Assembly: GCF_036669915.1 (NCBI RefSeq)
Contig: NC_089313.1
Span: forward strand, 1,098,585-1,162,584
Reading direction: 5' to 3'
Length of the DNA: 64,000 bases
Source: Pocillopora verrucosa
Taxonomy: Eukaryota > Cnidaria > Anthozoa > Scleractinia > Pocilloporidae
This document shows, in pieces, positions 30,420 to 52,500 of this stretch. The stretch's first letter is position 1; each line of letters begins with the position of its first letter. The translations under genes and the position numbers were made by a program. Below the pieces are notes generated by a model. The model was not told the origin of the DNA. It searched no databases and saw only the letters and a program-made list of their open reading frames with translations.

Positions 30420-31085
30420 TTATTTCTATAGCGCATTTTCCTAACGCCCAAATGCGCTTTACGGCGTCAAATTATCATAACCTATAATTATATAAAAATT
30501 TAAAGTCTGAGAATATGCTTGTCGAAAAAAATAGGTCTTAAGCTTAGCTTTAAAAATAGAGACAGATGCGCTGCTTTTAATCTCAAATGGAACCGAGTTC
30601 CAGAGGTAAGGCGCGCACACTGAGAAAGCCCTCAGGCCAGTCAATTTGAGCTTGTGTGTTGGTTGCTCCAGTAGAAGTTGGTCAGCAGACCTGAGAGCTT
30701 GCCTAGGAACATAAGGAATGATGAGCTCAGTCAAGTACGTTGCTGCACCATGGAGTTGTTGTTTAACCGGAGATTATTTAAAAGCATCCATTGGTTCAGC
30801 TCACGCAAACAAACTTCAACCCTAGTGCGCGCAGACACAATATCCTCCATTTTAGTGGTCTTCATGCTAAGGTACAGTTGAGTGTCGTCCGCGTACATAT
30901 GAAACCCGACACCATGGCGACACAGGATAGCTCCTAGAGGAGAGGTATAGACCAAATATAGGATTGGGCCTAATACAGACCCCTGGGGAAGACCGCAGGT
31001 CAGTTGACGATCAGAAGAACTAGTATCTCTGATTTGGACGAACTGTGAACGATTGGACAGGTGATGGAAGCGCGGGAAAAGGAAG
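30387..31085 (-). mobile_element. Broken non-LTR retrotransposon (LINE, CR1/L2-like) 3' end
   Basis: The minus strand encodes reverse-transcriptase pieces: NRSQFVQI, CGLPQGSVLGPILY, and the catalytic YADD in FHMYADDTQLYLS. After a frame break near 30730 comes the typical C-terminal segment FSVCAPYLWNSVPFEIKSS. Roughly 100-150 residues normally found between YADD and the C-terminus are missing, so the copy is internally deleted as well as 5'-truncated near 31085. The element ends with gcgctatagaaataaatt followed by an (ATT)n tail at 30387-30420, a 3' end typical of this class. Non-functional. Confidence 0.8.
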
Positions 31086-31831
31086 TGACAAAGTTGCAGT
31101 TGGTTTTAATTTTGAATAAAATTTGTTTGACAGACTTGCACAAGTTTCCGCAACCGAAAGCAGAGCGTGGCCAGGCTTAATCAATAGAATCCCAGACTGT
31201 CAGCGATCAATTGAAAAGCATGAGTGTCGTAAAGTAACGGATCTCTGAGGGGACAAATCTTCGAAATGAACCAATTACATGGGAAACACTGGATCTCTCA
31301 CCGGTCGTACTATGTGCTTATAAATATTCCTCATGCCCGGATTACATGTTCAAGTTAAAGCTTAACTCAACAAGAGGACCATACTTTAACCATACTTTGT
31401 TTTTATTTGCAAACAGATCATGTCTTCCCAGCCGCTAATTAAATCCTCTATTTCAGTTTTGAATTGCTTTCCAAATGCTTTTTAAGTCAGGGTTGAAAAA
31501 TTGGAGTTCACAGACATATTACTTTCGATTTTGCATCCACAGTAACACGCAGCAAATAGTCACCTCGGGTCTCTGCCCGTGGCTTGCAATATAATCAAGC
31601 CCTATACCACTTTTTTCCAAAAACGCCACCGTTCTATTTTAGAAAGATAACAAGTTTCTTCTGATGTCATACTCTAAGGCATTTGATCCGATTCTCACTC
31701 AATACTCAACCCTAGGTTGCTTAATATATATATTACGTCAATGATTATGCAAAATATTAGCTTTTAAACCTAAATATATATTCTGCTTCTCGTCGTGACA
31801 TGCTTCAATCAATATGATCAAGCTGCCTCAC
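31086..31831. other. Intergenic, no gene seen
   Basis: AT-rich DNA without a credible coding frame. A segment at about 31628-31680 (ttctattttagaaagataac and onward) recurs in diverged form at about 33222-33275, on the far side of the kinase-like relic. Confidence 0.4.
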
Positions 31832-33030
31832 TCACTTAGTGTCTGTTAAAAGAAATTCACGTATCACGTCGCTCATCGAGGAGCGCTCCTCTGGGTCCGT
31901 TTGGATGCACCAAAGAATCAACTGTCGCAGATGCGTATTGGGCACCTTCATCAGCTTATCATGGAAATCTTCAGGAGAAGATATTCGTGCTCCCTTGTTA
32001 CACATTTCAAGCAAAAGTAAGCCATAACTTAGCACGTCAATCTGCAGATCAGAAAGCAACATTACCGTCATACACCCTGTATTCACTATTTTCCTATTGA
32101 TTTTGGCTGTAATATTAGAGCAAACAAGCAGACAAGCAGTTGCTGACTTCAATTGTATTTCTTGTATATTGTATGCACCATACCTCTGAGATACGTCAAC
32201 GGCTATAGATTGGTATACATTCAATTTCAAATTACCTGTTATTAACTTGATTATGTAATCTGTAACTCGGTAAACCTACACATAAAGTGTCTACAATTTC
32301 AAAGTCACGTAGAACAATCTGCGCAGGCCTTACTTCACCTTTATCTATTATAAAATCAACAAAACTGAAATAGAATTAAAAAAGGCAATAAACCTTTACC
32401 TTCGGTGATTTCTGTTCTTCCTGGTTCAATCCCATCATTTCCTGTCTCAGTCACTCAGTCTAGCTCTAAAGCGCTTGTCTTCCCTCCTTACCAACACAGT
32501 GACGCTGTTGATATTTCCATGAACGACAGGATACGGCCTCTTGCGGTGAAGGAAGTGTAAGCCTTTCGCAATATCCAGAGCAATCGTGGTTATTTCGGCA
32601 ACTGATAACGACTGCCGCAATAAAAGAAACCTTAAAAAAGGGTCCGGCAATTCATTTACCAGTAGTGGACGAATATCATCGTCGTTTGTGGCACCAATAA
32701 ACTTTGGATGGCAACAGTAAGACGCATTGACCATTGCCTGTTCGTACATGTGCCTATGGTGAGGTAAGAGTCTTCGCATTTCATCCATTAGTTTAACAGC
32801 TACTCGGCTACCACGCAACTTTACTTCCACTGCACCCTTGGTCCCCGCTCCAAAGAATTTCCTCCCTTTTTCTTTCCAATTTCCTTTCGCTGAATAACCC
32901 AGTCATCTACCCGTGGAAGCTGATGTTCGGTCAAAGTTGTCTGGATGGTAGACAAGGCTGATTGCAACTCTTTGTTTGAGGAAGCTTGACTGCTTCTTGA
33001 GTGATTCTTGAGATGAAGTCTCCAAGGCCA
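31832..33030 (-). pseudogene. Decayed protein-kinase-like gene (cnidarian shkB-like type)
   Basis: Pieces of a kinase in a likely order: a coiled-coil lead (ELQSALSTIQTTLTEHQLPR) and DDWVIQRKEI; a glycine loop and lysine strand (FGAGTKG ... RVAVKLM); the loop HGNINSVTVLV; then IDVLSYGLLLLEM and QTDPEERSSMSDV at the C-terminus. HGN replaces the catalytic HRD and no clean DFG or APE is visible, so activity is unlikely. The frame changes in the coiled coil (near 32980) and again at an AAAAAGGG run near 32865. A stop follows RARLSD at 32447, although an alternative splice might avoid it. A possible middle exon (about 32290-32350) carries VLRDFEIVD. I infer a pseudogene. Single-base errors in the sequence could explain one break but not easily all. 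Confidence 0.6.
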
Positions 33031-33885
33031 CTGTTTTTGAAGTAAAGGTAAGAAATAAGGGCTTACGGTCGTGAGTAATATCTAATTATTTTCTACAATG
33101 TGATTCGTTGAGTAAAAGTTTGAAAAATGTTAAACTACTAGCTTTTTTTGTCTTTTTTTTAAGCTCAGTTCTCTGTCCGTAACTCCTAATCATAACCCAC
33201 ATAACTTTTCTCCACAAACCCTAACGTTTTATTTTAGGAAGATTACAAGTTTCCCCTGACGTCAAAATTCTAAGGTATTTACTATTTGTAAGATTTCAGT
33301 CTGTGATTCTCGTGAGTTCCTCATGCAAGGTTGCTACGGATAAACTCAATGGGGATTGCTATTCGGTGATTTTTACCCCGTTTTCGTATCAGTTGATCGG
33401 ATTTCTATACAATTCCAGAAACACTTCTCGATCAATGGTCGACCTGTTTTACTCCCTAATGTTTTCTAAAAGAGACTCACATATAATTTCGCTCGAGTTT
33501 CCGTTCTCAACGCTGATGAGATTCGTTCTGTCGAGATCTTGGTTTGTTTCTTCTATATCGAAACAAACAGTTCTTCCTTCGTGTAATTCACTCAGATCCC
33601 ACCTCTATTCCAAATTGTTGCCCAACTTCTAAATTTTTTCGACTTCAATCGCTGTCTTGTCCCTTGATTCATTTTGTCCCGAGTGACAGGAAAATACTTT
33701 GTTTTCGATCATTTGACACATCTGTGTACCTTCCAGCTCCATAATGGAACTTCTCAATATTTCCTTAGGGTCGCTCTAAAAATCTTTGGACTTAAGTACT
33801 GCCGTTGGTACTTTTTGTACTAAGGAATTAACTGATGGTGATGGTAGGTTCGTGGTGCAGGCGTAACTGCAGTTTCTTTCCTTTG
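33031..33885. other. Intergenic between kinase relic and GT-A
   Basis: No supported gene. Open frames at 33303-33632 and 33544-33744 have no recognisable domain and no splice context. Part of the stretch will be 3' UTR of the GT-A gene. Confidence 0.4.
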
Positions 33886-35571
33886 TTACGTCAATTCGTA
33901 GATCCCCTTGTGAAGATCTCCTAAACTAAATCTTCGATCACACTCTTCCTCCTGTTCCGTAACAGTTGTCTTGTCGATATGACGCTCATCCATGATTGTT
34001 CCCTTGTTTCTTTGTTGCGTTGTCGTTGGGCACAACCACGATTCATCGACGATTTGAAGAAGATGTGTGTTTGGTCCTCTTTCCATTCTTTTCTCAAGTA
34101 CGTTATGAGAGGTTACCGTTTGATTTGGATTCTCCTCCGAGCAAGTCTCCAGCTGTTTCTGTTCGTCTGAAATCACAACAACGTAGCAGTAGAATAATTA
34201 AGATGATGAATTTTGAGCTCAGTCTTAGAGAAAGATATTATTCGTTTAGTCCCAAGCATGGGAAGTAGAAGAGATTGTGTTTCTACGAGGAATCGAGCCT
34301 CAAACATTTTTGTTGAAACATGCATCGGAATTCGAAAGTTAAGCTATTGTTATCGATTTTTTTGGCAGGTACTTAAGAGGATTCTTACCGTAAACAGCTC
34401 TGCGACATTTGGCAACGAGGTCATTACACTGTTTTTCCCAGTTGTACTCTTTTCTGTAACAGGTACGCAGATAGTCACTTTCTTGACGCCGCGTTTTCCA
34501 GTTTTTCCTCCAAACTTGTTTTATAGCGTCAGCCCACACACTGGGATCTTGGGAATCGATTACATAGAATGAACCGAATGCAATCTTGCTGAGGGCCTCT
34601 CCAAATCCCGTGTTCCCACTCACAAGTACAGGCAGGCCAGCAGATAGAGCTTCAAGTGCTGTGAATCCAAAACCGTCCGTCCGAGAAGGCATTAGTGCAA
34701 GATCCACCTCACAAAATAACCTGATTAGCTCATGTTTATTCTCAAGGAAACTTCTTACATCCAGGTTTTCTGGAGAAATGTTGCACTCCAAAAATCTATC
34801 AGTAACCTGTTGAAGGTCTTCCTCGAGAGCACCGGCGAAGATAAGTATTGTGTCACTTAGCCTAGCTACCGCTTTAGCTGCGATGTCAAACCCTTTCAGT
34901 TTGAAATCTTCCTCATCTCCACGGCCAAATGTTAAAACTCGACACTTTTTGCCATCTCTTGGTACGTGTTCTATGTCCGAGTACTCGTTAAAAATTCCCG
35001 GAATAAGAGTTAAAACATCATCAGGATTTTTACACCAGCAAAGATAACTTTGGAATGATTCACTTAGCTTTGGCCCAACTCCAACGACAAAGTCAGCATT
35101 TTCACATAGTTCAACTTCAGTTTTGTGCTTTGTTTCACTTCTCGCGATAGAATCCTGGTAGGCTTTCCACATGCCCAGTTCCTTTGGCGCTGTGTGAGTG
35201 ACTTGTACCCACTTGCACTTGCGATTGTCTCTAATAATCTTTGCTGGTGCACCAAGGACAGCTCCATGGCCAATAACTATATCAATCTGGAGATCACGAG
35301 GTGGAAAGCAAAGCCAAACTTTTTCCTCCAACCCAACCTGCCTTTCGGCTTTAACAACTTTGATGTTGTGTGAGACGGCGTCTTTCTTTTCCTCTTCATT
35401 GCATTCAAGAAGGAAGACTGTAACCTCAACCAACGGATGTTTCGCTAACTGAATGGCAAGTATTCTGTTCAAGGTTGATATTCCTCCCTTCCTGGACCAC
35501 CACTCAGATGACAAAAGGAAAACTTTCAATTTTTCTTCAGATGAACCTGGTGCTCGTAAGCTAGACGGCAT
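33886..35571 (-). CDS. GT4-like glycosyltransferase gene A (GT-B fold)
   Basis: Two exons, 34389-35571 and 33886-34166, join in phase to 487 aa. Exon 1 is a whole glycosyltransferase-group-1-like domain: N-terminal WWSRKGGISTLNRILAIQL, a middle with VGVGPKLSESF, FGRGDEEDFKLKGFDIAAKA, and the donor-binding motif SRTDGFGFTALEALSAGLPV, where Asp replaces the usual first Glu of EX7E. The donor TACG|GTAAGA is strong. Exon 2 encodes a short Glu/Thr-rich, probably disordered tail with no known domain. There is no signal peptide or membrane span, so a cytosolic role is likely. From memory, coral genomes fuse such domains to NACHT-type immune receptors; no NACHT is present here. The sugar and the acceptor are unknown. 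It is roughly three quarters identical by eye to gene B at 42957-44157. Confidence 0.82.
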
Positions 35572-37155
35572 GCCAACACACAAATGTACACCTCTCTACG
35601 AAGACAAAAAGGCCAAAAAAATTACAGTCGAAATTTGTACTTGACAGTTGAAGTCTTTTTATGCAATGCATGGGACAATCCCCTGGAGAAAAATGCCTAA
35701 GGGTGAAGTTGATATTCTGAATCATGCATAATTACCGATATATGACTTAGAGGATTCAGACCCAAATATCAGCTAACAGATGGGGATTTGAAGGAAGATC
35801 ACGATGGTTAACATTGAAAGGGCGGAACGTTACTCACGGGACGATCGATCAATCCCTTATTAAAAACAAAAAAGTTTTTGAGGCGCTCTAAGAAACAGTA
35901 GATATAATAATGATGTTCGCAACGATAAAGATGTATTCGAAGTTCATTAAGTCGAAGCGATGAGACGTTAACAGGACTTGCGTAGCTTAACAGTGAAAAT
36001 AGGCGGAGTAAATGGTGTAAATCGGTTTAGAGCGGCATGAAGTGGTTCCGAAAACTAAGAAGTACAAAGAAAAAATGTAATTGAAAAACGATAGAACTAC
36101 AGTAATCCTTGGAAACAACTCTGGATTCCATTCAAAAGATGTAAAAGGTTAAAAAGACTTAATACTGTATCCGCGTTGCGGATTTTACAGCGTTGACGTT
36201 AATTGTACTTTAAATTCTTAATGTTGTCACGATTAGTTGATAGTCGGAACGGTTTACGGTCAACTCGCCCGGAAGTCAGAGCACCGAAAAAAAAAAAAAA
36301 AAAAAAAAAAAAATGGTCCGCAATGCGTACATGAATGGTTTGCGAAATTGAGCTGCTTTTTAGTGTCTGGTGTCTTACTAGGTTTCTATTAGAAGAGCTA
36401 ATATCTAATTACGGTAGATAGTTTTCAATATTGTTCCTGTTCATCAATAAAACAAGACAACTAGCATATAATAGTCCTGAAATACTCATTTTCAAGGTGA
36501 GGGTTATTAGCCAGACTTTGTTAAGGTCTCATTTCTAGAGCATCATCTCCCATAGTGGCCTGGTAGATTCAGTCATAATTTTGTTTACGCAACGAAGTGG
36601 AAATGAGTTCTTAAGTTTGTAGGTTGATTGTCTATTCCGAGGCAAGTGATCTGAAATTAACTCTAGGGAAGCATTTCATATGAATATTTTTGGCATTTTG
36701 AGTACCAATACACGAGAACAAAACTTAAAAAAGGGCCGGGACATCTGGGAAATGAAGTAATCTACACTAGAAGCCATTGGGAACTTGATTTGGTTCAAAT
36801 GTATGACTAATTTTGGACAAAACATACATGTAAAGTAACACAGTGCTAAGCATAGGTTTCTATTGTCCATTAGGGCACAAAGTTCTGTTTTCAGTTGGTT
36901 GAGAGCAAAACGTTTACTATAATTATTGTATTTGGGTTTTGTGGGACTGTATTTTCAATAACACAGAAAATTTTAGTTGAGGTAGGTGGATATGAGGTTG
37001 CAAATGGAAAAATCTAGGGAAAAAAGATAGGTGCACAACAAGATCTGAACACAAGCAATATTTTAATGAATCATATGTAGAGTAGTACTCTGAAGTAACA
37101 TTACATTAACGTTGCTAATAATATTTAACCCAATAAGATTTGCAATTTCACATAG
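35572..37155. other. Upstream of GT-A, no gene seen
   Basis: Promoter side of the GT-A gene. No convincing TATA box or coding frame was found. It includes a pure 27-A run at 36287-36313, which may be the tail of a retroposed fragment or a simple homopolymer. Confidence 0.45.
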
Positions 37156-37621: not shown

Positions 37622-40385
37622 CATAGAGGTTTAATTTAACAGAAAGTTCTGTAGAGATAGAGTGTCATCATAATAAATTTCAGGAACAGTAATCAGAGAC
37701 ATGACTTAAATACAAGAGTTCTATGAACAGGCAAGTAGATGATGGTATCATATGATTAAAAGTACCAGAATCTTTCACGTTTTCTTATTATTGAAATTGC
37801 AATTTCATGCCAGTGTGTTTACCAAATTCAAGCAATGTGGAGACATGAAACGAATAGGCAAATTTGACATCATCATGCAAAGTGTTAAAGGTCCAAGGTC
37901 CAAGATCCAAGGTCCAAAACAAACATAGTAAGCAACTGAACTTCACGTATCAATTTGTGTTAGAGCGCACAAGAGGACGTGTGAGACCTGCTTCACTCTG
38001 ATTTGCCAGAAAAACATTGAACTTCTGGTAACAATCAAAATTCAGAATGACTGTGACAGTTTGGAACTGATCTGTTAAGATAGTGCTTTTAGAGAGTCTA
38101 CAGACGTGATTTGAACCCTACGTCTCCGAGGATGCCTGATGGTTATCTAATTCACATCAAGTAGTTCTAACAAACTATAAACGTAACAAATGTCAGTTCC
38201 ATTGAACTGTCTTTATAACGATCCTTGAAACGCGACAAAGCATCTTTTCTTTCAAGGAAGTTGTCATGAGAGCCGATCTTAGATCGGTATTGTTCAGCTG
38301 ATATTCCCATATAAATATTACTTACTTCTGACGAAATCAGGGGCTAGCAGACTCTTGTCAATTGTGTGTGGATGGTCTGCTGAGTAGATTCAAGCCGTTA
38401 AATGTTGGCTTGCGCGAGTCTATTATGACTCCTAAGTTTCAATGTAGCGCAACCTGCACCAAAGGTCCAGACCGTGAAATGTTGGCCTGTGAGAGCACAA
38501 CTCCTCACCGTAATCCGCACTTAGAAGACAAGCCGACTGTAGGAAAGCCGGCGTGTGAAATCTAAGCAACAAAGATGAACGAACAACTAGATAAAAAAAG
38601 GTCTTCAATAGCTTGTAACACCCACAAATACAAAATGGCCGATTTCTTATGACTGACGTAACTTGGCCGAGCGTAGACTGGAATCCATCGTCGACAATAA
38701 TAAACCACGTGACAAGCGCTCTATCCAACAAGTATACAGGAATAAATATGTCGGACCATGACGTTATGTGGTTTACGATTCGCTTAAACCACACACAAAA
38801 GTCAAGTCGCCCGATTTTTTTTATCACTTGTAAACACACCAAAATGGCATACTTTAGAGGAGTGTTGAAGGTACCGATCGCTCGAAATACCATTTTGATG
38901 GATTTACTTACGTTACCAATCCTTCAATCCTGAAATGTCACCGAACTTCAATTTCTAACCTTTAAAAGCACCATTCACTTGTGTACTACATGCCAACAAT
39001 GTATACTAGAAACTATTATTTCAGTTATACATCTTTCAGCTATATGTTCAGAGGCTAAATCTGAAATGCATCTTATAAGAAAATGATGGAAATTCTTATA
39101 ATCATGCAGAGAGAATCACGATCTGTCTTTGCAAAGTTTTTTCGTGACCAAAGCGTCTGTATTCTTCAGCGCTAGCCCTCCAAAGCACTCTAAAAACAAT
39201 CGGGATAAGGTGGCTCGTCATAGATAATTTCCGTCGTTGAGTACGAGCAGAAACTAAGTAAGTATAAATAGGTCTTCCAATCTCAGAACTTGACGTTGAC
39301 TTTGCAGAGTTTGTAGCTTTTAATATGAGGGAATGAAATTCGAGAAAAACATTTTCCTTTGTTATTTCATAACTCATGAAATCCCATATTGTCTAAACAC
39401 CGATCGCTTTAAAGCGCCTTGATTTCTTCCTTGTGCATGACACGATTACAATGATTTCTGTTTACTGATCTCTTGAATATTCAGGATTTTGTGGTAACCA
39501 TGATAATTTTTGACGCTAGAGTTGCAGTACATTTGCCCATCTGAGCGTAAAAACCGCGGAATAATCAGGACTTTCACAAACTACACTTACGTTGAATCAT
39601 CACCTTGGTGGTATATTGACGTCAACAGTCATTCACACTCAAAGTACGAATGCTTCAAGGCTATATTCCCAGTAGTTGATTCGTTTGGAAAGGTCGAAGA
39701 TGATTCATGTTACGATGGACACAGTTTCATAAAGAACGAAATACGGATTACCAAAAACAAGTTCAAAATTACAATACGTTGCTTATCCTTGATGGTTGTT
39801 GCGATCAAAGCGTTTTAGACTAAACTGTGCAAACCCGATAAGGCTCAACTAGTTACCAATGGATCTTAAATCTTCAATAATACTTGATTACATAAATACT
39901 TAATCGAAACTATTCGTGAATATGTCCGCCAGGGAACCAACTATTATAAACGCAAAATCTAGTGAGCCAGAGAGGGTTTGTTATGAATTGAAAGCGAAAG
40001 TGACCTACGTACGGGTATCGGGGTATCGTTACCAAAATGAGAGATAATTTCTACATTTGAGAACACTAAAAAGCAATACGGAAAACCCACCACTTATTGC
40101 GAAACAAAAGCTTTAATATTCTGTAACAGCAACTGCATTACTGCAATTATTTGAGTGGATAGTATATTACGAACATCATAGCAAAAATGCTTGGCGGAAG
40201 TCGTTCAGATAAAGGCAAAAGGAAACAAAAATAGGGTACCTTTCGATCTCACTTTTTCCGGCTTTATACACTCAAAGCGGAGTAGTCGGACGTTAATCTC
40301 GTGAACTGAAGAAAGATGAAGTAAAAAGTTTGGACTGATTTAGTTGTTATTCGCACTTTGAACTCTCTGATTATATTCTCAATTT
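37622..40385. other. Intergenic, no gene recognised
   Basis: Several open frames (38432-38893 minus, 38649-38933 plus, 39510-39818 plus) overlap, lack domains and fit no exon model, so I do not call them. A short palindrome CCGATCTTAGATCGG lies near 38273. Nothing else stands out. Confidence 0.45.
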
Positions 40386-40457
40386 CTCTCTCCCAGATCT
40401 TCCTCGGTCATATATACACCTGTGTATATGACCGAGGAAGATCTGGAAGAGAGAGAG
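40386..40457. repeat. Long near-perfect hairpin
   Basis: cagatcttcctcggtcatat plus atacac on the left is mirrored by gtgtatatgaccgaggaag plus atctg on the right, around a loop of about 4 bases. Only two bases differ in length. CT-rich and AG-rich flanks extend the pairing with a few mismatches. The inverted repeat is obvious by eye; its origin is unknown. Confidence 0.85.
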
Positions 40458-40689
40458 TCCCCTCAAATCTAGTTATGCGGGAGCCTTACGGGCAGAATCG
40501 ATAAATGATACTGGTTTTCATCTATCTGGTTAGAGAAGTTGGATTTACCGCCAAGACGTGTAACGAGCATACTGGCCTCATGAATCATGGTTTAAATCAT
40601 TAGTAGGGTCAGTTTATATGTTTTTAAAATAGCTTTCCATTGAAACCTTTCAGACACGAAAAAGAGTGATTTTTCGGAAAAGCACAGCG

Positions 40690-42930
40690 GATAAGAGGAT
40701 AAAGTTGCCTTCATGCTGATTCATGGCCACTCTGAGAAGACGTAAGATCTTTGCGTCGACGTTCAACTCGTTTATGCGAAGCTAGTGGAACCTGGTGTAT
40801 TTGCTCCCTCAAAACTCAACAGAATCAATAGTGGGGACATAATGGCTTGCCTTAAAGAGATATTTTAATCATCCTTTGTCAAATCTTTTCAATATCCTTT
40901 TAATAGCTCCAAACAAATTCTTTGCACGTATTCAATGATGTCATAATGTTTAGTTGGTCACTTATAGTTTGCATTAATTGCATCGTAACAAAAAGATTTA
41001 TGGATATCCAAATCTTTCTGTGTCTTGTACATCTTATCACAACTCATACAAACAAACACGTTCATGGGCGTGTACCGTGTTGAGGCAGGGCTCGTGCGTC
41101 TAATGTCACGCCCACCCCTCCCCTCACGGACTGTTATGTCCAGGGTAGGGGCAGGAGAATGTTCCCATTCGTGTTTCTGTGTGTGTCCTTCCGCTAGTCT
41201 TCCTAATATCCTTGTTGCATGTTTCCCATTGGCAGCAGGTTTCGCACTCAACGAAGCACTTTGTTTAGTCTCAGAAAATCTTGTGGTTGTTGCCATTGTC
41301 CTTGTCTTCGCGGACTGGGCTCTAGGTTTCTCAGGTGGGTGGGGTTGTATTTGGTTTGACATGTAGTGGTCTGAGTACGACCGCTGTCCTTCTCTTACGG
41401 CAGATGCAGAGCGCTTGTAAGAAACATTTGAGTTTTCTTTATAAAAATTCTGCGCAGGAGACCTGCAAATGAGAAAAGACATTCAAGGGAAAAAGCTTTA
41501 TCAGTTACATGGGTTTACTGTGAAGATGGCATAACTTGAAAAAAAATAACAATAAAGTGTGGTGGTAAGGGCTGCTATTACCAAGTAACAAAAACAAGAA
41601 TTTGACATGGAAAGAAACAATCAGTTTGCCACAATAATTCCAAGCTAAATATTGTCGTGAACTTGCTTTTGAGATCTGTATTGTTACTTAATAAACAGAA
41701 CCTTCTGGGTAAATCTTTCTGTTCTTCAGTTAGTTCAGGTTCGTCACTGTGTTGCTTCCACAATGGAACAGGTTCTTGTACCTAAAAAATATTAGGAAGT
41801 TTTGACGGTTTTAAATGAAAGTTGGAAACATTGAGAGAGAACTAGGGAACGAGGAAAGTATCTTGAATGTTAATGGGCCTATCCAGTAGGAACACGTGTT
41901 ATAGGGGAGGGACACAGCACTAGGGCATTTGCAACAGCCTCTAAGAACAAAGACAACTGCACGATTAATCTATCAAACATAAGGAAAATTCACATGACCG
42001 ATGCAAAGCGCGGGAAAACAAGACACTAGTGACCAAGTAACAAGTGGATGGATTTGTAAAGGCTGGGATGATTTGGTTGAGTACGATGACGAGAGTTTTA
42101 AACAATCATAGAGAATATTCATGGGAAACCGAAAAGGGAAGAATTTCTTGTTTTTCCACATTTCAAACGAACAAATACTCCGTCAGATTTGATTGTTGAG
42201 TTGTGACAACAGCTGCCAAGAAAAAACAAGTGATAAAACATGTGCAACCAGAAGGGGAAGGTGAGGGTATTTTCGGATATGATAAATTGATCGGATGCGA
42301 CATTTTCATAAACTTATTTTGACAAAGCCATTCGCTGTGTCGGAAACACTGAGAGAGAACAAGGGCTACCGCTCAAAACGTCAGCTTTAGAAACTATTTG
42401 TGGTGGCCAATGTACATTAACAATTTTGTTGAAAAGCCAAATTATCTCATTTACACGAAATTCGAGGAAAATCTTTGGGAGTTTGCGTTGAGGGAGATGG
42501 AGACTGTTTAATATTGTCTTCCACTTACTCTTTTTTTGGAGATGTTTTCTCGAGCATTCATCAAGACAGATATAGACTTCTTCGACTTTCCATTTTGTTT
42601 CTCAAGAGTCAAAATTCTGATATTGTTGGCCATAACTTGTCTCTCCATATCTTTAGCTACCTCTGCTTCTGATGGAACCTCGCCATTAAACATCACCTCT
42701 TTGTCTGACGAGGAAGATTTCTGCTGTTTGGAATCAATGGATGGAAATTCTACCTCGAGTAGAAGTTTTTCTTTGCTTTCTTTTAGCTGCTGTTCAAGTT
42801 CGTTCGCCTCTGCCTCAAGTTCTTCCACTTCACGCCGAAGTTTTTCCAGAATGTTCTGTGCGGAAACAGAGGAGAGGCACCTGGTGTTGTGTTCCAAGTT
42901 TTCAGATTTTAAGCGAGGCCAACAATTTGC
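40690..42930. repeat. Segmental duplication, copy 1 (3' end of CCDC157)
   Basis: This stretch matches 47225-49527 in the same orientation, about 6.6 kb apart. It contains homologues of the last three CCDC157 exons, their introns, a shared retroelement-like insert near 42.4 kb, and about 75 bases of the preceding CCDC157 intron. The exon parts are closest; the DNA beyond the stop codon is more diverged. Confidence 0.85.
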
Positions 42931-44157
42931 TAGTATTCTCCCTTTCTTATTCTTACCACTGTCAATGGTGCGGAGTTTGTTAACGAAGTCGTTACACTGG
43001 CTCTCCCAGTTGTACTTTTTCCCATACCAAGTACGCAGATTTTCAGTTTCTTGAAGTCGAGTTGCCCTGTCTTTCTTCCAGACTTGCTCTATGGCGCTGG
43101 CCCACACACTGGGATCCTCGGAGTCGATTACATAAAATGAACCGAATGGGACTTTGCTGAGTGCTTCTCCAAATCCCGTGTTGCGGCTCACAAGTACAGG
43201 CAGGCCAGCAGATAAAGCTTCGAGAGCTGTGAGTCCAAAGCCGTCGGATCGTGAGGGCAGGAGGGCGAGATCCACTTCACAAAATAACTGGATGAACTCC
43301 TGTGTACTCTTAAGAAAACCTCTCACCTCTAGATTTTGTAGAGAAATACCGCACTCCAAAAGCCTGTTAGCAACCTTCTGGAAGTTTTCATTACGTACAC
43401 CGGCGAAGATAAGTTTTGTGTTGGGTAACAAAGCTACGGCTTTAGCTGTGATATCAAACCCCTTCAGTGCGAAATCTTCCTCATCGTCACGGCCAAATAC
43501 CAAAACTCGACACTTTTTCTCATCTTGGGGTGCATGTTGTATGTCCGAGTATTCGTTGAAAATCCCAGGAGTTAGATTGATAACATCATCAGGATCCTTT
43601 TTACACCACCGAAGATAACAACGGAAAGCTTCGCTCAACTTTGGCCCAACTCCAACGACTAAATCAGCCAATTTGCTAAGTTCAACTTCAACTTCATGCT
43701 TCATCTCACTCTTAATGATGGGATTCCCATAAGTTTTGAACATGCCCAGTTCTTTTGGAATGGTATGAACAATTTGAACCCATCTGCATCGGCGTCTGTC
43801 TCTGATCATTTTGGCTGGTGGCCCGAGTTTTTCTCCGTGACCAATAACTACGTCAATCGGGAGATCAACAGGTGGAACGCAGAGCCAAACTTTTTTTTCC
43901 ATCCCAGGCTGCTTTTCGGCTTTAACAACATTAATGTTATGTTTGACAGCTTCTTTCTTTTCTTCTTCGCTGCATTCAGGAAGGAAGACTGTCACATCAA
44001 CCAAAGGATGTTTATCCAACTGAATGGCAAGTACTCTGTTCAAGGTTGATATTCCTCCCTTCCTGGACCACCATTCAAATGACAAAAGCAAAACGTTTAG
44101 TTTCTTGAGAGGTGAACTTTGTTCTTGTTCCCTCGCTTTCTGGAAGGTAGACAGCAT
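40958..44157 (-). CDS. Chimeric gene: GT4-like glycosyltransferase fused to CCDC157 tail (gene B)
   Basis: Three coding exons, 42529-44157, 41702-41781 and 40958-41462, join in phase to 737 aa. Residues 1-400 are a GT4-like domain close to gene A (WWSRKGGISTLNRVLAIQL; SRSDGFGLTALEALSAGLPV at about 302-321). From residue 435 the protein is the CCDC157 C-terminal region: coiled coil NILEKLRREVEELEAE, the SSSSDKEVMFNGEVPSEAEV segment, then exons 2 and 3 with an intact C2HC finger (CX2CX12HX3C) at the end. Residues 401-434 come from sequence that is, at least in its CCDC157-derived part, intron in CCDC157. It still has GTAAGA at 42956 and an ACAG acceptor at 42856; splicing there would frameshift to a stop after about 408 aa. 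The frame is open throughout. Exon 2 uses a poor GTTCTG donor, as in CCDC157. Whether the chimera is translated needs RNA data. Confidence 0.75.
42341..42445 (+). repeat. Penelope/hammerhead-like retroelement remnant in gene B intron 1
   Basis: gggctaccgctcaaaacgtc followed by agctttagaaac and gtggccaatgtacattaac resembles the better-preserved copy at 54289. It is present at the same place in the CCDC157 intron (48925-49028), so it predates the segmental duplication. Confidence 0.45.
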
Positions 44158-46750
44158 TTCAGCACCAGAGATGTACGTAAACCTAACAAGACAAACATCC
44201 TAGACACTTACAGCTGATCTGGATAATGAACGGGTGATGAACTTCGGAGTGAAAAGCTAAAGGACCTAATTATGCGTCGATCAGTTCGAAGTCTCAACAT
44301 TCCCCCTCCCCGGGCAATCCCCTAAGTATCTGAACTTATAAAGAATGGTGTAGTAAAAACTAGGGAGAAAAAAAATTCCTTATTCAGTTTTTTTGTTAAA
44401 TCCAAAATCACCGACGTGACTTTCTACACATTGGCCAAGCTTTAAAACCTAGAACTTTTCTTCTTAGCCATTTTCTTGGGAAAGTAAACTATTTACCTTA
44501 AACACCTCCGTATTTAAAGATTTAACACTTATATTACCTGAAGAGACTTCACACTTTCGGTCCAAACTCCCCACACCAGCAAGGAAAGGTTCAAATTCGC
44601 CACTCCCAGGTGTCGACGACAGTTAAATGGTCGTTGAACTAAAAACAAAGTGAACAAAATGACAAATTGTGTGTTTGCGATTGTAAAACATTTTTGGATA
44701 GTAATACTGATGATAGTAAAAATCATAAAATTAGCAATGACGAAAATAATAACAATAATACTTACGATGATAAAATTGATGAAGACCTGGTCGACCTGGA
44801 GGACAGGAATGTACAAGGACCTATATGGAGGACAGAATCATTAGAAGAAGACAAGATAATGAAAGAACATTGTAGTAAACGTTAAATCGAGGCTTCTCCA
44901 TTTAATGATCATCCTTAATTCTCTTCGCCAATTCGTCAATTTTGTTTACTTAGCAATTACGTCATAAGCTTTAACATGTGAACGTATATATACAGATGCT
45001 GTTAGCGGCCCTCTTTCAGTAGTTCTAGTTTCAGCTTTACAGAGCTACCTTACGTATTTTTGGTAAATTAAGGTTAGGTCACCCTTAGCTATTTGGAGTG
45101 CAAGCGGGAACCGATGTGTAAGTATAGACTATTTCTACCCCTATTCTGAAGTACAAATTCAAACTTATTGCCCTTTTCCCTAAATTCGCGTTTTTAACCA
45201 ACTGAATCAAAAGGCATCATTACAAGTTAAGTACGTGGCAGCTCCCAGTTTTTCAAAGGACCTATTTAGTTTTTATGTAGCCTTTTATCTCCTGCAATTC
45301 TATAAACTTAAGGATTTTATAATTGATATCGTTGATATTATTGTTATCGCTTTAGAACAATTAGAAGTTCACGTATTCTCTCGGTATTTTTTATTTCCTT
45401 TGTCTTTAGAGATCAGTTAGAAACATTTGTTACGCCGCAATTATGATCAGAATGTTCATTATTAATTCGACCGTGATTCCCGTTATCCTGTAATCTGTTG
45501 TCATTTAGTAATCAGTTGATTCATTGCATTAAATCTCAGTTTACGTTCGATTATCGTCAGTAAATCATCGTTAATCACAGCTGATTTTCTGTGATCTCTG
45601 GCCCTATTCGATCAGTAAGCATTTCCCGCACGCAAAGTTCAACGCGACAAGTTGTTGACAAGTGGTCTCTGCCTCTTCAGAAGTCACCGCGAACCTGGCG
45701 TTACAAACACCAAGTGAAGAATTTGCTCAAAATTTACGGGTTCAATTTACAGTTCCTTATAATTAAACAGTCAAACCAATGTACTATGGCCAAGTAAAAG
45801 AATTTGAAGAGGTACAATGGTGGAAATAAACAGCTCAGGGATAGCAGGCCTCAGAGAATGGTGGAAACTTATCGAAATATGTGATTTCAGTCACGTTGGT
45901 GTTTTTTGCAACTTATTTATCATCTAAACGTTTTTATTCTTCAGCTCTGAACTATTCGGGAAAAAATGGCGAGGCAAAAATAATTTCCAACTAGGTGACT
46001 AGAGAAACACTCAATTTGAGAACAGGACTTGACAGCGAAAAATGTTCAGGTTTAAATAGGACTGTTTCCTAACTTGTATATTAAAATGTCAAAAAGTTCC
46101 GCCTCGGCGTTGAATCGAAAGAGTTCACCCGCTAAGAAACGGCCTTTCAAATCTTCGTTTGCGACTCAGAAAGCAACGATCCATTTGCGTTGTGTTTGCT
46201 GACTTCATCATTAGTCACTGTCCTTATATGGCTCGATATTCGAGTATCAAAACAGCAGAAAATTCTCGAACATCATTAGCATTATTCATTGACCTGCTGT
46301 TATCAATTTCACTTAGCAACTGCGAATAATCAGGGAGATGGAAAAAATTCCGCTTTCTCGGTTAGAAACTGTTAGTTTGTTGGAAAAGACCGAATATACA
46401 TCAGTGCAATGCACACAGTTTGTTGAAATACGGAAAGCGCGCTGACAGATATAGGTTCAAAAATACAAAACGTGTCCGCTCCAAGGGACAATGGTTGTTG
46501 CCTACTGATCAGTTTCATACCGATCGGGCTCAAATTTTCTTAGATGCAAAAATAGTATTGTCGCTCACGGTAAACCTAACATTTCAGTTTGGCAGTTGCT
46601 ACCCTGAAATATGTGGAAATATATTCTGGGACTCAGTGAAGATTAGCACAATATCTTACTAGTCGCGAGACGGAAATCATTTGTAGCTTTCCCACACAGC
46701 TAGCGAGAACAGGACGTGAAAAATTCCTTGTCGCTGTGACTGGAAATATT
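44158..46750. other. Upstream of gene B, no gene recognised
   Basis: Expected promoter side of gene B. I found no convincing upstream coding exon, but a non-coding first exon is possible. A 38-codon frame from about 46086 (Lys/Ser-rich start MSKSSASALNRK) has no domain or splice support. The right part resembles DNA beyond the CCDC157 duplicate, very diverged. Confidence 0.4.
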
Positions 46751-47224
46751 GCAACTCATAAAAAACACCAATTACTACCAGCTTCAAAATTCAATCTACA
46801 CTTATCTGAGTGGATAGTGTACTTAAAAAACGAATTTAAAATAGTGCAAGACGGAAGTTGTCACCGAAAGTGAAAGTAAGATACCTTCCTTTCCCAGTTC
46901 CAGCCACTCACTTCTACCGAGCAGTGTAGTCTGTTGCCAATTTCGCGGAATAAAAGAAAATAATCTTAGGACCCTAACACGGATTAGCTTTTCTAGTTGC
47001 CACAACGTCACTGTTATTCGCCCTCTTCGTCCCTTGCGATTTCCAAAGTTCTCCACGGCCGAGGAAATTCTGGGAGTCACTCTTAATAATTCGTGTCCAG
47101 TGTTAACGCGTCCAACCCTTCTAAGAGCCAAATAATTAAAATATCTTTTTATGATACATCCTCGACACGAACAGACGCGACTTTTCGAAAAGCGCCTCTG
47201 AAGGTTAACCGTTACCTAAAAAAT

Positions 47225-49527
47225 GGGATAGGATAAAGTTGTCTTTCTGCCGATGCATGGTAACTTTAGGAAAACATAAAATCTTTAAGTTATCATTCAT
47301 CTCGTTCAGGCGTGTAGCATAGGCATATGTGCTCACCAAGAACTCAAACAAATTCAACACTGGGGTGATAATGGTTAACGTCTTACAATTCATTTTATTA
47401 TTGTATGGAAAGCATTTCTTCAACATAAACTGAACAAGCAATGTATGTGCATTGAATGTATAATACTTCATTTCACAATGAATTTGTTTTTGATTTTAAT
47501 AGCTTCAAAAAACTTCTTGGATGTATTCAATAATGTAGTAAAGCTTATCTGGTCATGTGTAGTTTTCATTCACTGCACCATAACAGAAAGATTTATGGAT
47601 ATCCAAATCTTTCTGTGTGTTGTACATCTTATCACAACTCAAACAAACAAACACGTTCATAGGCGTGTACCGTGTTGAGGTAGGGCTCGTGCGTCCAATT
47701 TCACGCCCAACCCTCCCCTCACGGGCTGTTACGTCCAGGGTAGGGGCAGGAGAATGTTCCCATTCATGTCTCAGTGTGTGTCCTTCTGCTAGTCTTCCCA
47801 AAATGCCGGTTGCATGTTTCCCGCTAGCAGCAAGTTTCGCACTCAATGAAGCACTTTGTTTAGTCTCGGCAAATTTTGAGGTTGTTGCCTTCGTCCTTGT
47901 CTTCGCGGACTGGGCTCTAGGTTTCTCAGGTGGGCGGGGCTGTATTTGGTTTGACATGTAGTGGTCTGAGTTCGACCGCTGTCCTTCTCTTATGGCAGAT
48001 GCAGGGCGTTTGTGAGAAACATTTGGGTTTTCTTCATAAAAATTCTGCACAGGAGACCTGCGAATGGAAATAGACGTTCAAGCGAAAAAGTTTTATCAGT
48101 TTCAACATGGGTTTACTGTTAAGACAACTTTTTTGAAAAAAAGTAAAGTATGGTGGTAAGAGCTGCTATTTCAAAGTATCAAAAAGAAGAATTTAACTTG
48201 GAAAGAAACAGTCAGTTCGCTACAATAATTCCAATCTAAATATTGTCGTGAACTTGCTTTCGAGATCTGTAATGTTACTTAATAAACAGAACCTTCTGAG
48301 TAAATCTCTCTGATCTTCTATTAGTCCAGGTTCGTCACTGTGTTGCTTCCACAATGGAACAGGTTCTTGTACCTAAAAAATATTACGAATTTTTGACAGT
48401 TTTAAGAGAACGTTGGAAACATTGAGAGAGAACGAGAGAACGTGGTAAGTTGTTTGAATGTTAATGAGCCTATCCTGTAAGAGCAAGTGCAATAAGGGAG
48501 GGACACAGCACTAAGGCATTTACAACAGCCTATCACAACGAAGATGACTGTGCGATGAACCAATAGAAGCGTAAAGAAAATTCACATGACCGATGCAAAG
48601 CGCGGGAAAACAAGACGCGTGTGACCAAGTAGCGAGTGGATTGCCGGGATGATTTGGTTGAGTAAGATAACAAGAGTTTTAACCAATCACAGAAAATATT
48701 CAAGGAAAACCGAAAAGGGAAAAAGTTCTTGTTTTTCTACTTTCAAACGAACAATTACTCCATCAGTTTCGATCGTCAAGTCGCGACAACAGCTGCCAAG
48801 AAAAAACAACTGACAAAACACGTGCAACCACAAGAGGTAGGTAAGTGTATTTTCGGATATGATAAATTAATCGCATGCGACATTCTTCATAAGTCATTTT
48901 AACGAAGCCGTTCGTTCTTCGCACTGAGAGAGAACGAGGGCTACCGCTCAAAACGTTAGCTTTAGAAACTATTCATGGTGGCCAATTTACATTAACAATT
49001 TTGTTGACAAGACCAAATTATCCCATTCACACGAAATTCGAGGAAAATCTTTGGGAGTTTGCGTTGAGGGAGATGGAGACTGTTTAGTGTTGTCTTCCAC
49101 TTACTTTCTTCTTGGAGATGTTTTCTCGAGCGTTCATCAAGAAAGATATAGACTTCCTCAACTTTTCATTTTGTTCCTCAAGAGTCATAATTCTGATATT
49201 GTTGGCCATAACTTGTCTCTCCATATCTTTAGCTACCTCTGCTTCTGAAGGAACTTCCCCATTAAACATCACCTCTTTGTCTGACGAGGAAGATTTCTGC
49301 TGTTTGGAATCAATGGATGGAAATTCTACCACGAGTTGAAGTTTTTCTTCGCTTTCTTTTAGCTGCTGTTCAAGTTTGTTTGTCTTTGCCTCAAATTCTT
49401 CCACTTCTTGCAGAAGTTTTTCCTTTTCAAGTCTGAGTTCTTCCAGAAGGTTCTGTGTAGAAACAGAGGGGAGGTACTTGGTGTTGTGTTCCAAGTTTAA
49501 AAATTTTAACCGTGGCCAACAGTTTAG
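47225..49527. repeat. Segmental duplication, copy 2 (native CCDC157 3' end)
   Basis: Partner of 40690-42930. This copy is continuous with the upstream CCDC157 exons, so it is the parent. The two terminal exons have identical lengths (80 and 505 nt) in both copies. Confidence 0.85.
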
Positions 49528-52500
49528 CTTAAAATGAGCTGTATTGTTGATTAATTTTGTAGATGACCACGAATAGAAAACTCTCCCTTTCTTTATTTCA
49601 CGTTTTGCTCATGGCCACACCCTGAAGCCTATGAAAAGTGCCTGCTGCAGAGAACTGGCCATCTATGGAGAATTAACCTTAACACCCAGCACAAAGTGAC
49701 AAAATTATTTTAACCAAAGCCACTAACACAAAAGACAAAATGCCCCAAATTACCTGCTTGGAATCAAGCTCTTCAGAGAGGTTTGTCTTTTCAGTTTGCA
49801 AACCTTCCATCACTCCTTGCAGTTCATCTCTCTCTCCTTCTGCCTCAAGCACTCTGTCACGCAGCTCCTCACATTCATTGTCCAGATTATCCACTCTTTT
49901 AAGAAGTGCATCATGTTTGCTTTGCAAAGCCTCAGGAAGTAAATTAAATCAATGTTTGCACATGATACTCACTAAAAAGGCTGGCTGCTACAACCTTATC
50001 CCTGTTTCTACATCATCAAGTATGAGCTCCTTCTAAATCACCCCTGAACCCAGCATATTGCACATAAAACCAACCAGGGATAAAAACGAGGAATTGTCAA
50101 TATAGAGCTCTGAACTAAAAGAACTGAGCCAATACTTCTTCAATAAAGAAAAGCTATGGCCTCATTTGCACTCTGTGGCACACATCCAACCAAGGACTAA
50201 GAGAGCTGCTTCCCCACCCAAAAGGCTATGCACAAGTTCAAATAAAAACATATAAGATCTTGTCATCCTCTAACAGCCTGGATTTCTAATATCATTTTCA
50301 CATTAAATCCAAGCTATAAGTTTAAGAGTTACATGTACACTTGTGGTTAATCTTATCACCTCCACTAACAACAGAAACCTACATATCTAACCTGTTCGTG
50401 TTTCTCCAAGGTCTTGTTCCTGGCCTGTGTTTTTCCCAATTCAATAGAAGTGTTTTTTAGTTTGACTTGTAAGTCATCCATTTCTACCTTCAGTTGTTGT
50501 ACTTCAGACTCTACCACTGTTAATCTTGCTACCTCCTTAGACTCCTTATCTAACTCTGTTAACAACCTGTTGTTTTCTTCACCTGGATGAAAAGAAAACA
50601 TGAAATAAGCCACACTGATCAATTTTCTGTGTTGTCTTGTGTCAACTGGCTACATTTCATTTCCTTATTTAAAAATCAGCCGTGTTGTTTGCTGTATAAC
50701 TCTTGGTAAATTTGTCATTTGTCTTTGCATACTTACCTAGAGTTTTAACTGTTTCTTTATACTTCTTTTTCTTTTCCTCCAGTTTGAGCACCATACCCTG
50801 AAGGACATCTTTTCCCTTCACAAGTTCATTGTTCACTTTTTCTGCATCAGATAATAGCAAATCTTTCTCAGCAACAACTTGTTTAAGCTTCTCTTTAAAG
50901 TCCGTTTCTTTCTTTTCACCTTCACTGTCCTTATCTAACAACTGCTTTTCCAGATCTTGGATTTGCTTTTCCAGTTGCGCACAAACTTGTTTTGACCTAC
51001 TAAGTTTATCCTCCAGTGGATTTATCTGTGCATACAAATTATCCAAGTGATCATTAATTCTTGCAAGATCATGGCTCTGTTCAGATGCCCACCTAGACAC
51101 ATCAGCAGCAGCCATTAGCGACTGCCGCAAGAGTTTTTTCTGCTTTGCCAGCGAAGATGGAAGTCCTTGAGATTCACATACTTTTATCACCATGCTACCA
51201 ACTTCAATAAGATTTTGTTGTGTTCTAGCACAAGCCTCACATGGAATAAATGCAGTGTCATAAGTCTGTGTTGATGACTCGTGATAAGTCTTTGCATTAG
51301 TAACATCTTCTACAGCAAGGGTAAGTTCCTTTGAGGGTGTAGAACTTTCTAGAGATAACTCCTCAGATGGAGAGAGAATGAACTTCACAGAAGTTCTATT
51401 AGCACTTTGGCTTTCAATTTTTCCTTGGACAACAGAAGATTTGCCTGATCTTTTATCTGATGCTTGCTTGAAGAGTTTTACCTCACTCCGCAGATCTGTT
51501 ATCGTGTCTTCCATCTTGGACATTGTTTTGTTTTTGGCTTTGCTCTAGAAAACATAAATCAACTTCCATAAGTTGAAATTACCAAAGGTGATCAATATGT
51601 CATTTCTCATCTTTTGTTTTTTAATACAAGATCAAGCAAATCAGTACCCAAAAAATGAGGAGAGAGGAAACACAAACTATAATAAAAATGTAGTGCTAGG
51701 TCATTGTGGCCACTATAAATTAAGCAATGGATTGTTGTGTGCTAAACTTGGCCAGGTTGTCAGAGGATACACCTTCCCATCTCATGTAACCTCTAGGTCT
51801 GCTGAAGTTGGGACAATAAATAACATAATACAATCTATGATTAGCAGCTGTCAACCTCCTGTCAGTCAACAGATTTTTTTTAGGGAGTTGTTCTTCACAA
51901 CTACTACAGGACTATCCACATTTTGGGAATTCATTTGTTCCATCCAATTCCTACAAAGTCTATTTTTATATCAATATGCATTCTTTTATTTTAAGAGCCC
52001 AACTTTTGCCAACATACCTAACAGAACAATATTTATGATTCTGAAAACACATCAAAGAAAATTTTGCCAATTTTTTAATGATTCTTACCTCAGTCTGGAG
52101 TTTCTGGATGGTTTGCTGCACATGAACAAGTTTGTTCCAAAACTTTTTGGCTACCAGTCCAACAGACATACTGGAACCTAATATTTTACCACTACTAGGC
52201 CTGCCATCACATGAGGTCAGCAGTTGGTCACTGAACTGAGCCATACATTGCAGCAAAAGAACAAGTCTGTTGAGAAAAGTCAATCAGCAGATCGTTTTTG
52301 CATTCTTGAGATTATGAAAAAGTTAATCTGCCCTTTTCTGAATAAACATCAGAAATTAATAATAATAATAATTACAATAACAACATTAATAATAGTAATA
52401 ATAACAATTATTATCATTGTTACCACATTTATCAATTTTAGCATAAATAATATAAATAGTGGGGGCTAAAAACTACAAGCTAACCTATATCTATAATAAC

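Follow-up and report, generated by a model that had tools for sequence, protein, structure and literature searches.

Published passages on coral glycosyltransferases describe a family that changes its partners readily. In the coral Acropora digitifera, more than 500 GT4 paralogs with highly variable fusions have been described (PMC8195603), and the effector role of GT4-conflict in immunity and conflict is a prediction that the authors of that report drew from domain architecture and gene context. The accounts of Acropora glycosyl transferase group 1 genes likewise describe an expanded family fused to NACHT (PMC12314368, PMC4083563), and also to TPR, LRR and ankyrin repeats (PMC12314368). Chimeric genes are documented among tandem duplications in Drosophila yakuba, with 76 chimeras among 1116 duplications (PMC5460883). 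In coral tandem duplicates, gene conversion is reported to be very rare (PMC10236652). A paper on CCDC157 and Drosophila Pif1A links CCDC157 to spermatogenesis (PMC6370830).

Here we describe a locus on the minus strand of a 64,000-nt stretch of the Pocillopora verrucosa genome (the window), at which a GT4-conflict exon precedes a second copy of the 3′ end of a coiled-coil gene. The chimeric locus is real and well resolved, with a known type of origin and in a family known for changing partners, and from its sequence we regard it as a plausible new architecture reached by a known route. A fusion protein is possible, and would most likely depend on intron retention. A coral has been reported to carry this GT4 family in hugely expanded and variously fused form, and the odd partner is therefore less surprising than the initial annotation held; the coral host fits the family.

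The chimeric frame and its two source genes

An uninterrupted minus-strand frame of 549 aa (44157-42508) runs from the GT4 domain into a coiled-coil tail, as judged from the open reading frame list and Pfam, and the 80-nt and 505-nt exons join it in phase to give a 737-aa reading. Both the continuous frame and the in-phase joining of the next two exons had been noted in the initial annotation and stand as described. Residues 24-389 match the Pfam family GT4-conflict (PF20706, E 2.6e-77) over profile positions 2-383 of 385, with 260.9 bits against a cut-off of 26; the frame also matches PF00534, and a PDB search with the GT4 part returned 12 distant GT4-type sequences at E <= 0.001. Retaining GT4 enzymes carry an active-site signature of E-x7-E plus basic residues. 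R223 and K232 are common to the chimeric copy and its paralog, gene A, and the E-x7-E-type motif reads D305 then E313, its first Glu being Asp in both copies and Glu in PDB 6kih.

Sequence patterns built from the two close GT4 paralogs, which make a weak test, gave 27 matches in prokaryote genomes and 71 in viral contigs, none of them confirmed, and a pattern from one exon, likewise a weak test, gave two matches in viral contigs, again with none confirmed. A degenerate pattern matched three bacterial contigs (L001-L003). Upstream of the chimeric GT4, the stretch 44481-44629 recurs on the other strand at 15165-15313 (150 bases, 71%, E 1e-17), and is either a repeat or a 5′ exon remnant. Elsewhere in the window, a 406-codon stop-to-stop frame at 59420-60640 matches the choloylglycine-hydrolase family (CBAH, E 5e-58); it covers almost the whole profile in one piece and is apparently a domain without introns.

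Gene A encodes the second GT4-conflict domain of the pair (frame 34339-35595, PF20706, E 5e-82) and extends into an exon of its own (Table 1). The homology of the GT4 pair stops before this exon 2, and the limits of homology and the exon readings agree with the earlier statement that the chimeric GT4 lacks the second exon that gene A retains. Behind gene A, at 31832-33069, lie protein-kinase-like pieces (PK_Tyr_Ser-Thr, E 5.5e-6 and 0.0023) that by eye seem interrupted by frame changes; they may once have been the 3′ portion of gene A, or belong to a neighbouring gene in decay. A fragment of an RVT_1 reverse transcriptase is also found near gene A, at 30731-31105 (E 3e-10).

The parental coiled-coil gene lies upstream of the chimeric locus, with exons found from 51544 to 47553. 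The initial annotation named it CCDC157, and the stretch SVGLVAKKFWN in the frame 52320-52085 is presumably CCDC157-like; none of the libraries searched gave the gene a name. No parental piece scanned exceeded a Pfam cut-off, the finger scoring 19 bits with zf-C2H2_jaz (cut-off 22.6 bits), and the parental exon 51544-50735 had no PDB match at E <= 0.01. The distance of about 6.6 kb between this gene and the chimeric locus and the exon lengths agree with the initial annotation, the 80-nt and 505-nt exons being present in both genes. A test of 17 AG sites across 49753-49440 left four that preserve the parental reading frame, namely 49590, 49527, 49476 and 49452, with 4, 9, 7 and 14 pyrimidines, respectively, in the 16 positions before them. 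The acceptor for a start at 49452 is CACAG and that for 49527, the next best, is TTAAG; the last six exons form a single open frame of 702 aa with the former start and a 727-aa reading with the latter. The parental tail exon thus likely starts at 49452 rather than at 49527. Candidate parental poly(A) signals, by consensus match only, are an ATTAAA at 47500 and another site at 47399.

Table 1. Features of the chimeric locus, gene A and the parental coiled-coil gene, in window coordinates
Feature	Position	Strand	Basis or remark
Gene A exon 2, phase 1	33886..34166	-	487-aa reading with exon 1
Gene A, paralogous GT4-conflict exon 1	34389..35571	-	Same donor G/GTAAGAAT as chimeric GT4
Intergenic blocks, second unit of the putative duplication	39078..40895	-	Collinear with 47426-45853
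Block 86% (86.1%) identical to 49525-47461, introns included	40866..42928	-	Self-comparison
ATTAAA, candidate poly(A) signal behind copied tail	40899..40904	-	Consensus match only
505-nt last exon copy, Cys/Cys/His/Cys finger-like motif and stop	40958..41462	-	Alignment with parent
80-nt exon copy	41702..41781	-	Alignment with parent
Coiled-coil exon copy, 7 codons shorter than parent's	42529..42855	-	Alignment with parent
101-nt stretch, probably a hybrid intron (a linker if kept); open in frame	42856..42956	-	Donor GTAAGAAT 5′, acceptor CACAG 3′
Putative duplication junction	42929..42948	-	Gene A homology ends 42949; parental tail homology starts 42928
GT4-conflict glycosyltransferase coding exon, chimeric locus	42957..44157	-	ATG 44157; donor after 42957, phase 1; Pfam PF20706
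Parental 505-nt last exon	47553..48057	-	Exon joins
Parental 80-nt exon	48293..48372	-	Exon joins
Parental coiled-coil tail exon (likely start 49452)	49105..49452	-	Best acceptor directly upstream
Parental exon, phase-0 end before duplicated tail	49754..49930	-	Open-frame exon joins

Duplication junction and the 101-nt stretch

Homology blocks were taken from a sensitive self-comparison of the window. The tail (49525-47461 against 42928-40866, 86.1% identity) is followed in both units by four collinear intergenic blocks of 64-68% identity (47426-47230 against 40895-40696, E 2e-17; 46875-46796 against 40219-40141, E 4e-4 and weak; 46501-46371 against 39802-39675, E 2e-8; 45948-45853 against 39173-39078, E 4e-4 and likewise weak), whose offsets climb steadily through 6531, 6656, 6699 and 6775. 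The third collinear part is GT4 itself (44213-42949 against 35627-34381, 76.2%). The self-comparison gave no match in the gaps that separate 45853 and 39078 from the GT4 homology (1.6 kb and 3.5 kb, respectively), and no third copy of the tail, intergenic or GT4 blocks was found within the window at E <= 1e-3.

The junction unites parts of two neighbouring genes inside a collinear duplicated unit, with about 20 nt between the two homologies. The layout is consistent with tandem duplication of a unit of about 6.6 kb, comprising the tail, the intergenic sequence and GT4, and places the chimeric locus where the two units meet. The initial annotation had proposed a transposed or tandem duplication; the duplication and the derivation of the tail from the neighbouring coiled-coil gene stand, and transposition does not, as the units are collinear. 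A transposed copy of the tail was rejected because the intergenic blocks and GT4 lie collinear behind it. An exact 12-nt match (42948-42937 and 49593-49582, E 0.79) weakly hints that the copy may once have begun near 49593 and then lost about 50 nt.

We propose that a tandem duplication took a unit made of the 3′ end of the CCDC157-like gene, the intergenic sequence and GT4 exon 1, with one breakpoint in a GT4 intron and the other most likely also intronic, within the CCDC157-like gene. GT4 exon 1 would in this way have come to lie upstream of the second tail copy, and the second unit would end, on its far side, with gene A as a complete GT4 gene. The chimeric locus would then carry a 101-nt hybrid intron composed of the GT4 donor and the tail acceptor. 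We lean, by a modest degree of confidence, towards this duplication origin and hybrid-intron anatomy taken jointly.

The stretch 42956-42856, treated as exon in the initial annotation, is probably such a hybrid intron. At its 5′ end, the GT4 exon closes with the phase-1 donor that is identical in gene A; at its 3′ end, the copied tail retains CACAG/AAC in phase 0, with 14 of 16 pyrimidines in both copies of the acceptor. The last 73 nt of the stretch (42928-42856) match parental 49525-49453, upstream of the parent's best acceptor. On a donor-site scoring table, the donor of the GT4 exon reaches 83.0, the two donors of the copied tail 78.6 and 59.7, the gene A donor 85.0 and two parental donors 87.0 and 86.6; only 7 of the 684 GT sites in 40000-52000, the GT4 donor included, score as high as the GT4 donor or higher.

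If the 101 nt are kept, the in-frame fusion of 737 aa results; if they are spliced out, the frame shifts and meets a stop 8 codons on, leaving a 408-aa GT4. Splicing from the GT4 donor to the AG at 42880 gives a stop at 432, and the frame is kept by just one of the four AG sites that fall within 42940-42840, the one at 42929. It lies 27 nt behind the donor, and that interval is too short for an intron. The 80-nt exon and the last exon were rejected as splice partners of the GT4 donor, both joins being out of frame (412 and 422 aa). Since a phase-1 donor meets a phase-0 acceptor, the native splice sites do not join the GT4 and tail coding exons in phase, in-phase exon shuffling through them is rejected, and a fusion protein needs the 101 nt to be kept. 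The exon-to-exon, in-phase join described earlier is doubtful, its phases clashing at a stretch that reads best as intron.

A splice model has to count the open in-frame linker as chance. By base composition the chance of an open in-frame 34-codon linker is about 3% (0.099 x 1/3), and the true value exceeds this, since an open frame already exists there in the parental sequence (ORF 49608-49084). The copied block begins 2 nt from the parental acceptor 49527, and on the weaker supposition that this acceptor marks the true parental start, the last 73 nt of the putative intron would be exon.

Selection, frame integrity and the age of the tail

Over 394 codons of the GT4 pair, dS is 0.66 (NG) or 0.57 (ML) and omega 0.30 or 0.37, with a likelihood-ratio statistic of 40.7 against omega of 1; purifying selection acts on the pair. 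In simulations of a neutral GT4 exon, none of 3000 stayed open at 0.3 substitutions per site, and 0.3% did so at 0.15.

For the tail, a dN/dS comparison with the CCDC157-like parent, as suggested in the initial annotation, gave dS of 0.17 (NG) or 0.14 (ML) and omega of 0.45 or 0.63 over 302 codons, which is not different from 1 (likelihood-ratio statistic 3.11, P 0.078), so that omega does not demonstrate constraint on the copy. Integrity of the tail's frame provides a stronger test. No stop and no frameshift occurs over the 302 aligned codons, and the 906 aligned coding nucleotides contain one in-frame 21-nt indel, against 11 indels, 9 of them frameshifting, in 961 aligned nucleotides of the tail-block introns. 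At the introns' indel rate, the probability that a neutral tail would show neither stop nor frameshift is 0.03, 0.001 or 0.00005, assuming that 25%, 50% or 75% of the divergence falls on the copy's branch. Of the 11 intron indels, 7 are single bases, some of which may be sequence errors; when these 7 are set aside, the probability of no frameshift is 0.39. In the part of the linker shared with the parent, differences fall 3, 4 and 4 by codon position and 18 of 24 residues are the same, so that this low-power test gives no sign of constraint, and non-coding DNA could produce such a pattern. Identity to the parent in the tail exons (92/109, 21/26 and 138/167 residues) is only somewhat above that of the linker.

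The two halves of the locus disagree in age, with dS of about 0.15 for the tail and about 0.6 for GT4. Comparison with the parent shows differences at 132 of 1034 tail-intron sites (12.8%), against 153 of 529 (28.9%) in five alignable flank blocks (Fisher P 2e-14), the latter being a lower bound on flank divergence as the blocks were picked because they align. The identity between the tail copies falls near the stop codon, and 26 of the first 91 aligned nucleotides behind it differ (P 0.0002). A single event of one age was rejected on this drop and the Fisher test, and given the disagreement in age a single-event origin needs additional gene conversion. The pattern suggests an old duplication followed by gene conversion of the tail block (40866-42928 / 49525-47461), through which the copied block would later have been homogenised with its parent.

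Possible products and comparison with known systems

Under the proposed mechanism, the locus would be transcribed from the GT4 side. Spliced transcripts would encode the 408-aa GT4 only and might be decayed, and retained transcripts would encode GT4, a 34-aa linker, the coiled coil and the finger. The hybrid intron could in this way act as a switch between the two products, and in the fused form the enzymatic role may fall to GT4, with the tail serving in oligomerisation or localisation. A real fused GT4-coiled-coil protein strikes us as a serious proposition that falls well short of probable. Its fullest version is improbable as a whole: the locus would make a regulated new protein, retention of the 101-nt hybrid intron would turn a conflict-type GT4 into a form that bears the finger and coiled coil belonging to the sperm-type gene next to it, selection would preserve the tail, and gene conversion would renew it from its parent.

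The rival explanations differ from the preferred duplication and hybrid-intron reading mainly on the product, and some are compatible with it. The initial annotation implied a plain fusion gene whose transcripts retain the 101 nt always or in most cases, and whose 737-aa protein is made and selected. An open, in-frame linker (3% by composition), tail exons intact at the low neutral probabilities given above for each branch share, and conserved tail splice sites all speak for it, and the linker would be mostly exon-derived, in phase, if the parental tail exon starts at 49527; yet a strong donor and a strong acceptor flank the linker, its differences spread evenly over codon positions in a test of low power, the tail omega is not different from 1, and the frame test weakens to 0.39 once the seven 1-nt intron indels are dropped. 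We hold a plain fusion to be possible and somewhat doubtful. A comparable, tentative standing goes to the opposite reading, in which the GT4 exon alone is functional and the tail copy is a pseudogene or an untranslated 3′ region kept parent-like by gene conversion. The omega values would suit a pair in which one copy is neutral and the other constrained, the conversion signature is present and a spliced transcript stops 8 codons after the join, but 302 aligned codons free of stops and frameshifts, along with conserved splice sites, are harder to reconcile with a dead tail.

An intact tail is also explained without any GT4 fusion if the copy supplies alternative last exons to the CCDC157-like gene, spliced from 49754 to 42855 (both phase 0) past the gene's own tail and the GT4 exon. 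Translated across this join, a single frame stays open for 695 aa until the copied stop, and a candidate poly(A) signal lies behind the copied tail; the arrangement needs, however, read-through of the parent's last exon and its candidate poly(A) signals, and a 6.9-kb intron containing a GT4 gene, and we judge it unlikely. Least credible is a 493-aa protein made by splicing chimeric GT4 exon 1 to gene A exon 2 (34166). Of four downstream acceptors tried, this is the only one that continues in the expected frame of its exon, and the donor is conserved, but the splice must skip gene A exon 1 across 8.8 kb, and an acceptor-like TTTGTCTTCGTAG was seen by eye upstream of the gene A exon 1 ATG; we consider it very unlikely.

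Returning to the preferred reading of a duplication with a hybrid intron, one route to a new GT4 partner becomes readable at base level, as a duplication would have put a GT4 exon before the tail of an unrelated gene. The phase clash raises the question of whether new architectures begin as intron-retention products. Conversion of the tail block would depart locally from the pattern reported for corals, in which such events are very rare (PMC10236652).

Compared with metazoan GT4-conflict proteins, the locus carries the same domain in both copies (PF20706; PMC8195603), and the CCDC157-like tail is not among the partners named in the passages of that report, TRADD-N and LRRs. The coral glycosyl transferase group 1 fusions have PF00534 in common with the chimeric frame, whereas the tail here is a coiled coil with a finger-like motif and not a repeat or NACHT. 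A GT4-CCDC157 fusion is not named in the literature passages found, which is not proof of its absence from print; judged by those passages, a fused protein, should one be made, would add a new architecture to the GT4 family. The chimeras of D. yakuba come from population samples with RNA data, whereas the present locus, read from genomic sequence, looks old by its GT4 dS of about 0.6. It appears to share their origin, with the 5′ part of one gene and the 3′ part of its neighbour brought together at a duplication junction (PMC5460883).
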